Shown in pieces: positions 50,742 through 52,116 of a stretch of DNA of 64,000 nucleotides. Each line of letters opens with the position of its first letter. Positions within the stretch are counted from its first letter, which is position 1. Position numbers and translations under genes: made by a program. The stretch spans positions 1-64,000 of the forward strand of contig NZ_JNKU01000003.1 in assembly GCF_000702165.1 (NCBI RefSeq). Reading direction: 5' to 3'. The stretch comes from Sharpea azabuensis DSM 18934 (GTDB taxonomy: Bacteria; Bacillota_I; Bacilli_A; Erysipelotrichales; Coprobacillaceae). The notes below the pieces were generated by a model, which was not told the origin of the DNA, did no database searches, and saw nothing but the letters and a program-made list of their open reading frames with translations.

Positions 50742-51137
50742 CTATGAAAGATACTTAAATTCTATCACTGATAAATCTTTTGTGCTGATATGCATTTCAA
50801 ATCGATATCTATTTTGATTATCGGATATGTCACAATCAATCAAATAGTACGACCACATATCATCAACAGTATAATGAATACGCGTATTGTTTACTGTAAA
50901 ATCATCACTCAGCAATAAATTAGTATCCATTGTTTCACGAAAATAGCGCTTTAAATAAATCTGTATTTGCCTTTGTTCATTAAGTTTTACTTCATCCTTA
51001 TGAAAAGCAAATAAATCCGCATAAATACGGCTTGTCATTAAGAGACTCATAACAACAATGATAAAAATCATTAATGTAACATTTAGAACACTACCTTGTT
51101 GATTGCTCAGTTTGACCTTCCTGCTTTTCTTCTTCAT
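50742..51137 (-). CDS. comGG: ComGG-like minor pseudopilin
   Basis: 131 residues from the ATG at 51137 (AAAGGA upstream), inside the end of comGF. A basic N-terminus (KKKSRKVKLSNQQG) precedes a hydrophobic helix (SVLNVTLMIFIIVVMSLL): prepilin-like, cleavage predicted after the G of NQQG, without the usual Glu at +5. The C-terminal part is beta-rich. Identification rests on being last in the comG order. Last gene of the operon; the efp promoter follows. Confidence 0.7.
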   Translation of the reverse strand: MKKKSRKVKLSNQQGSVLNVTLMIFIIVVMSLLMTSRIYADLFAFHKDEVKLNEQRQIQIYLKRYFRETMDTNLLLSDDFTVNNTRIHYTVDDMWSYYLIDCDISDNQNRYRFEMHISTKDLSVIEFKYLS

Positions 51138-51546
51138 TTTCCTTTTCACTCTTTTCATACAGATCAGCAATAAGATAACGGTATTCTCGTTTGCCACGAC
51201 GCACCTTCATGAGAAGAAAACGATTGTTTTCAAAAAAAGCTACGTCATCAACATCATAGAGCAGTGTTTCATAGCCCGGCGTTTTAACAAGCCGATGATC
51301 ACTCAATTCAATATGGAATTCCTTTCCATCTTTGTCTTTATAGACAATTCCATTGTGGTAGCTTTCAATCTTAGCCGTCATGAGATAGTCGGAAAGTTGT
51401 TTTGTTCCAATGGAAAGATCACTATCAATTTTTACTTCAGGCATCTTTAAAGACCTTATCATGCCATAAGCAGTCGAAGTGATCAGAATCGTAATTGAAA
51501 GTGCTAATAACATTTCTACGAGCGTAAAACCTTTTCGATTATATAT
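51091..51546 (-). CDS. comGF: ComGF-like minor pseudopilin with probable AUA start
   Basis: The prepilin leader and helix NRKGFTLVEMLLALSITILI are encoded in a frame that is closed by TGA at 51553-51555. Between that stop and the cleavage Gly the codons are CCT, CCC, ATA, TAT, AAT, CGA, AAA, GGT, with no ATG, GTG or TTG. ATA at 51544-51546 sits 6 bp after a perfect GGAGGTGA. A start at the first ATG (51513) would delete the leader and cleavage site. So the product is probably 151 residues, initiated at AUA. The C-terminal tail is acidic (KSEKENEEEKQEGQTEQ). Confidence 0.72.
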   Translation of the reverse strand: MYNRKGFTLVEMLLALSITILITSTAYGMIRSLKMPEVKIDSDLSIGTKQLSDYLMTAKIESYHNGIVYKDKDGKEFHIELSDHRLVKTPGYETLLYDVDDVAFFENNRFLLMKVRRGKREYRYLIADLYEKSEKENEEEKQEGQTEQSTR

Positions 51547-51725
51547 GGGAGGTCACCTCCATACTGCTTCGTTATTTCTTCTTCCACCTGATGACTATTG
51601 GCATGCAATACTCTTTGGTAAGAACGATTTAGGCTAGCTTGTAAAGAAATCATTCCAACGAGTACAGAGCAGAAAATCATAAAGGCGAAAAGCGCTTCAA
51701 TCATAGTACTTCCCTTACTTGACAT
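51516..51725 (-). CDS. comGE: ComGE-like minor pseudopilin
   Basis: 69 residues from the ATG at 51725 (GGAAGTGG upstream). The prepilin leader is very short: MSSKG, then STMIEALFAFMIFCSVLVGM, with the +5 Glu present. A hydrophilic C-terminus follows. Its reading frame covers the comGF ribosome site and initiation codon, ending 30 bp inside comGF, so ribosomes finishing comGE would unfold the comGF hairpin. Confidence 0.75.
   Translation of the reverse strand: MSSKGSTMIEALFAFMIFCSVLVGMISLQASLNRSYQRVLHANSHQVEEEITKQYGGDLPYIIEKVLRS
51548..51560 (-). promoter_or_regulatory. Shine-Dalgarno of comGF inside a hairpin
   Basis: GGAGGTGACCTCC: GGAGG pairs with CCTCC around TGA. The ribosome site of comGF is thus self-sequestered unless ribosomes translating comGE open it. 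Confidence 0.65.
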
Positions 51726-52116
51726 AAAACGCACCACTTCCTAACTGAAAAACAAATTCATAGATTTTTCCCGGCGAGCTAAGTCTGATTGTTTTAGCAA
51801 TCTTGATATGTCCGGAAGCATTAAATGTAAACTGGTAATGATTGAGGAATTGATAATCATTCGCTAAAACGACTTCTTTCTCGAACTGATTACTGCTGAT
51901 TTCAACACAATTGCTGTCGCAAACAACTTTAACAGTCTCATGCTTGACCATGGCTTGACTTCTTGCTAATTGAAAGGCGTGTGTAACCAACGCTATTTGT
52001 GCCTGTGCACTCGCCTTAGGCTTTCTGAAAGTCAATGTAATTGATGAAATGATTACTGTAATAGCTAAAACAAAGATCATTTCAACAAGTGTAAATCCCT
52101 TTCTATTTGCTAACAT
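51715..52116 (-). CDS. comGD: ComGD-like pseudopilin
   Basis: 133 residues from the ATG at 52116, inside the end of comGC. Class leader MLANRKG, then FTLVEMIFVLAITVIISSI with the +5 Glu. The globular part has two cysteines (VVCDSNCVEIS) that could form a disulfide. The earlier in-frame ATG at 52128 is possible. Confidence 0.82.
   Translation of the reverse strand: MLANRKGFTLVEMIFVLAITVIISSITLTFRKPKASAQAQIALVTHAFQLARSQAMVKHETVKVVCDSNCVEISSNQFEKEVVLANDYQFLNHYQFTFNASGHIKIAKTIRLSSPGKIYEFVFQLGSGAFYVK

Follow-up and report, generated by a model that had tools for sequence, protein, structure and literature searches.

The window analyzed here is a stretch of 64,000 nucleotides from Sharpea azabuensis DSM 18934 (contig NZ_JNKU01000003.1, positions 1 to 64,000), whose minus strand carries competence pilus genes in the order comGB (T2SSF match), comGC, comGD, comGE, comGF and comGG. 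comGE (51516..51737, minus strand) ends with the stop codon TAG at 51518-51516, and its last 31 bases overlap comGF in the +1 phase. comGF, identified by its frame and a Pfam match, encodes a minor pilin of the competence pilus, 151 residues long when read from the ATA at 51546-51544 to the TAG at 51093-51091 (51091..51546, minus strand). Upstream, the frame is limited by a TGA (51553..51555, minus strand), after which it reads stop-PP-IYNRKGFTLVEMLLALS and continues to the same TAG. Reading this TGA as Trp was considered and rejected, given that 5 of the 39 long open reading frames in the window end in TGA and 68 TGG codons lie within them; as TGA is a stop here, the comGF frame does not simply run through it. 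On the minus strand the junction reads GGAGGTGA CCTCCC ATA TAT AAT CGA AAA GGT TTT ACG CTC GTA GAA ATG, translated in the comGF frame as stop-P-P-I-Y-N-R-K-G-F-T-L-V-E-M. This includes a prepilin leader with the cleavage motif R-K-G/F-T-L-V-E-M (51511..51537, minus strand; the slash marks the cleavage site), of class III by its KG/FTLVE core with G/F plus Glu5. Read from ATA, the protein matched the Pfam ComGF family (PF15980; 34.7 bits against a cutoff of 27; E = 2.3 × 10−8) as well as N_methyl (E = 7 × 10−6), and these two matches indicate that the comGF leader is real. In Sharpea and its relatives, the comGE stop sits within the comGF leader codons (CTC GTA GAA supplies TAG, ATT GAA supplies TGA).

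The first-pass annotation had proposed that comGF starts at AUA, on the grounds that its frame is open only from the TGA at 51553-51555 and contains no canonical start codon ahead of the leader. Both the reading and its coordinates proved correct: no ATG, GTG or TTG (together NTG) was found between that TGA and the leader, ahead of the cleavage site. The ATA (51544..51546, minus strand), assigned as start codon from the frame and from the conservation described below, follows an extended Shine-Dalgarno (SD) site, GGAGGTGA (51553..51560, minus strand), which lies within comGE and includes the TGA; the six bases between SD and ATA, a distance that had been noted already, are CCTCCC. The last two bases of the ATA are shared with a comGE Tyr codon, TAT (51545-51543). 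The comGF SD of Sharpea and its relatives is encoded by a comGE motif, E/G-G-D/E. Frame, SD and lack of NTG are all direct readings of the DNA. Further downstream, an ATG that encodes the M of VEM in the leader motif (51511..51513, minus strand), 2 nt past the comGE stop, opens the reading frame in the mechanical ORF list, a start that would delete the leader.

comGF was located in 28 genomes of the family Coprobacillaceae by Pfam and in 39 by alignment, and start codons were classed as NTG (canonical) or ATH/AUH (ATA, ATT or ATC). NTG was absent in 18 of the 39 genomes (9 of 17 genera), all of which had ATH at one fixed distance from the SD (ATA in 12, ATT in 3, ATC in 3); the other 21, from 8 genera, had a canonical ATG or GTG. 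Within the Pfam set, 17 of 28 genomes lacked NTG from the in-frame stop up to the leader (ATA in 12, ATC in 3, ATT in 2), and ATH lay, by aligned spacing, 8-10 nt past the end of the GGAGG core. Among the genomes found by alignment only, one (G021) had ATT behind GGAGGTGATGA and the other ten had ATG. The nearest relative and sole other genome found in the genus, Sharpea porci (ComGF 64% identical), had the same ATA, and the next nearest, Kandleria vitulina DSM 20405, had ATC. Other genera showed the canonical state at the same spot, for example GGAGATGAAATCAA-ATG in G031. The neighboring comGC and comGD genes of these loci begin with ATG or TTG. ATG was also the start of most comGF genes in the sibling family, and in a wider sample of Bacilli 69 of 85 classed comGF genes had a canonical start with SD, 11 a canonical start lacking an SD match, and 5 neither; of these last, one represents AUC in Bacillus and another seems to be a misplaced leader. 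In three genes from Bacilli (L168, L170 and L164), the stretch from the comGF in-frame stop to the leader held neither NTG nor SD-linked ATH. The comGF of two genomes from another family (L051 and L059, f12) apparently begins at CTG behind an SD.

The first-pass annotation had also allowed that the missing NTG might be a sequencing error. ATA and ATG differ by a single base (A for G), so a misread or lost ATG, or a decayed gene, is conceivable in one genome; however, ATA, ATC or ATT stands at the same spot in the sister species and in many other genomes, the comGF frame is otherwise intact, and the ATG or GTG of relatives represents an alternative state found in other genera. The chance of an error or of decay is in our judgment negligible. 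The infC gene of the same family indicates that starts of this kind are within the repertoire of these bacteria: in 30 of 30 genomes it begins with ATT (27) or ATC (3), never ATG, behind GGAGGTG at a similar spacing, so the family very probably does initiate at AUH codons that follow a long SD.

Aligning the junction across related genomes, as the first-pass annotation had suggested, showed that ATA, AUU or AUC is kept together with the leader, and the proposal of AUA initiation in comGF gains strong support from this joint conservation of SD, ATH and leader, including the ATA of S. porci. In 9 of 9 genera lacking NTG the triplet at the start position was ATH, compared with a background of 5.9% among upstream triplets of the same phase nearby and 9.2% among the codons of comGF; the probability of this by chance is ∼5 × 10−10 or less, for genera that are not fully independent. 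In the +1 overlap phase, ATH opens with the third base of the comGE codon before it, where most changes are silent. That base was A in 17 of 17 aligned genomes, although the encoded residue varied (P, T, I, S, Q, K or E), and it was the only invariant comGE third position within the aligned stretch (probability from local codon usage of 4 × 10−6 with all rows, and 0.005 with one row per genus). The T of ATH was likewise invariant even though the comGE residue was Y, F, S or L. Both the conservation of A-T-(A/C/T) at fixed spacing and the constraint on comGE silent sites are direct observations. A tree of ComGC plus leaderless ComGF placed the AUH genomes in two groups (g2, g12, g16 and g19; and g1, g7, g8, g11 and g15, with the ATG genome g18 inside the latter), requiring 3 changes of state in total, a number as low as which was reached in 0 of 500 label shuffles. 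The AUH groups of the family may have a single shared origin, so independent events are few.

The same alignment bears on two other ways of making ComGF. Reinitiation after the comGE stop at the ATG at 51513-51511 would draw on a sequence, TAGAAATG, typical of stop-start coupling, and this ATG does open the mechanically listed ORF. The product would, however, have no leader and no Glu5, yet every relative retains the leader motif, and the upstream SD and ATH are conserved at comGE silent sites. Most AUH relatives encode V or L rather than M at that place and so have no ATG to reinitiate from; on this count the candidate was rejected, and we consider it very unlikely. A programmed −1 frameshift yielding a ComGE-ComGF fusion, with the SD-like site as stimulator, was a further case anticipated by the first-pass annotation, and it would fit an SD-like site lying within an overlap that has no NTG start. 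Against it, the alignment conserves the SD and AT(A/C/T) only: ATH at a fixed spacing is retained and a slippery heptamer after the SD is not. Relatives also carry ATG or GTG at the same place instead of ATH, and a second prepilin leader would end up buried inside the fusion. A frameshift fusion finds no support here, and we regard it as most improbable. A noncanonical start of comGF is well supported by comparison, and the gene very likely begins at the AUH codon, AUA in S. azabuensis.

Why the codon should be AUH is a separate question, and the overlap with comGE offers one answer. In the +1 phase any NTG start of comGF makes the comGE codon TGN, that is Cys, Trp or stop, while ATA gives Tyr, ATT Phe or Leu, and ATC Ser in ComGE. 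Correspondingly, all 11 canonical genomes of the 28-genome set have Trp or Cys in ComGE at this position, as the phase forces, and the AUH genomes have Tyr (12), Ser (3), Phe (1) or Leu (1). The residue is always Tyr or Phe in the first AUH group; in the group of Sharpea it is variable (Y, S or L, with W in the ATG genome), which speaks against the overlap as cause. Most likely, the codon stays AUH because its second and third bases double as positions one and two of a comGE codon, and with the overlap explaining the avoidance of NTG, regulation need not be invoked. We lean slightly toward the overlap as the cause of the AUH state, as it is simpler than regulation. The account that we favor as a whole, and consider probable, is that comGF would be translated from its own ribosome-binding site, wholly within the 3′ end of comGE, where the long SD GGAGGTGA would set the ribosome on the AUH codon and AUA would be read by initiator tRNA. 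The product, M-YNRKG/FTLVEM..., would be a prepilin fit for processing by prepilin peptidase. The C terminus of ComGE would keep the comGF start codon from becoming NTG, with the long SD making up for the weak AUH codon and, as a side effect, translation of comGF would fall short of that from an AUG and respond to initiation factor IF3. Ribosome initiation at AUH, and its strength, are inferred from the conserved sequence.

An alternative is that AUH is retained because low, IF3-sensitive translation of ComGF is itself useful, for minor-pilin stoichiometry or feedback as with infC, with the overlap incidental. The first-pass annotation had supposed tight stoichiometric coupling to comGE and a weak start suited to a low-copy minor pilin. 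Consistent with this, the AUH state persists in two groups that lie far apart and differ in the phase of the comGE overlap, and three AUA/AUU starts of Staphylococcus aureus tested by reporter gave ∼10-30% of the activity of AUG (PMC13009471). Nearly half of the family genera, however, use ATG or GTG with nothing else visibly changed, each of these canonical starts coincides with a ComGE Trp or Cys forced by phase, and AUH sites often carry a long SD, which would raise initiation instead of lowering it. RNA folding has a bearing here too. A palindrome, TATGGAGGTGACCTCCCATA (51544..51563, minus strand), can pair both SD and start codon, and the first-pass annotation had suggested a hairpin that sequesters the ribosome site. 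The palindrome does exist, and its fold pairs the SD (−8.3 kcal/mol, z = −1.3), while a 101-nt context folded no better than shuffled sequences (z = 0.47). As a conserved element, the hairpin did not hold up: in the family alignment a related stem was present in the two Sharpea genomes only, its shape was lost beyond that genus, and several family AUH sites had little or no structure. Mean folding z relative to shuffled sequences in the family comGF sites was −0.71 for AUH (L002-L027) and +0.56 for canonical starts, somewhat more folding at AUH sites as a regulatory weak start would have it, though this is weak evidence for stronger folding among related genomes. Selection for a weak start appears rather unlikely to us as the main reason for the AUH codon.

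A second, independent occurrence came from Bacillus. A search of the class of Sharpea with B. subtilis ComGF returned nothing, and the survey of this group was therefore begun from a Bacillus genome, covering 44 species of one Bacillus genus. AUC or AUU stood at an aligned spacing of 9 behind GGAGGAGG-like sites in 16 of the 44 species. Eleven had no NTG between the comGF in-frame stop and the leader; AUC behind GGAGGAGG with no NTG before the leader was seen in species near B. subtilis, namely L231, L230, L233-L235, L237, L239-L241, L248 and L134. The 5 further AUH species had an NTG only inside the SD (too close for use) or one lacking an SD match. Across 17 aligned Bacillus genomes (the 16 with AUH plus a close relative that has an additional ATG), all three comGE codons spanning the SD core invariably ended in G, one of them being the Trp codon TGG, which leaves no choice, and the T of AUC/AUU, a comGE third codon base, was T in 17 of 17. 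Here comGE overlaps comGF in the +2 phase, in which AUG would only change a ComGE Gln to Glu or a Tyr to Asp. The Cys/Trp argument accordingly does not extend to Bacillus, leaving room there for selection for a weak start. The L231 protein was 99.2% identical over 127 residues to what we take to be B. subtilis ComGF (UniProt P25958, 127 amino acids from MLISGSL), the annotated start of which is presumably a Met within the membrane helix. The open frame encodes a leader motif, GYTLLNVLF, upstream of that presumed start, and the B. subtilis ComGF annotation would lack the whole prepilin leader.

That AUH starts of comGF in several Bacillota, including the B. subtilis group, are useful, with the level of a tip pilin set by IF3 and by comGE translation, is a tentative proposal that we think unlikely. 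If it held, transformation could be tuned through a start-codon checkpoint, and the earlier B. subtilis ComGF annotation would be one without its prepilin leader. Gene callers usually accept ATG, GTG and TTG only, and because of this limit they will tend to trim ComGF to a leaderless protein in the AUH genera, with the B. subtilis group a probable further case. That group serves as a model for competence, and ComGF-type pilins have lately been linked to DNA binding. The junction also offers a rare example of overlapping genes in which the protein sequence encoded by one apparently keeps the start codon of its partner from being AUG.

As far as the literature searched extends, comGF is a new addition to the genes with an AUH start behind a long SD (infC, ccpN, cvfC1); a search within which most subscription papers were out of reach found no published report of an AUH start for comGF. 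Relative to known AUH starts, the novelty lies in a start that is nested in, and apparently constrained by, comGE. Autoregulation of infC by IF3 is established in Escherichia coli. Like comGF, infC has an AUH start (AUU, AUC or AUA) behind a long SD; unlike infC, comGF encodes a structural part of the pilus, begins inside another gene and has no known feedback. AUA/AUU starts of infC, ccpN, cvfC1 and citZ were mapped in S. aureus by a 2026 study, which found extended SD motifs at the conserved noncanonical starts (PMC13009471). ccpN (AUA), cvfC1 (AUU) and citZ (AUA) thus resemble comGF in combining AUA/AUU with an extended SD, and in ccpN and cvfC1, as in comGF, the noncanonical start is conserved among species (PMC13009471). 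The S. aureus starts differ in being backed by ribosome profiling and reporter data, where that of comGF is known from sequence, and cvfC1 is the first gene of its own operon, whereas comGF begins within comGE (PMC13009471). E. coli pcnB, as cited in that study, is a chromosomal gene limited by its AUU start; on that secondhand description it has an AUH start in common with comGF, in a distant bacterium. In Streptococcus sanguinis, where the two are reported as separate products, ComGE needs ComGF to be stable and vice versa (PMC10790768). The pilin genes of Streptococcus pneumoniae comG overlap as well, comGC to comGG resembling Sharpea in their overlapping pilin genes with prepilin leaders (PMC8727766). 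What sets Sharpea apart is the AUH start of its comGF, as against the canonical start with SD of most comGF genes in the wider Bacilli.
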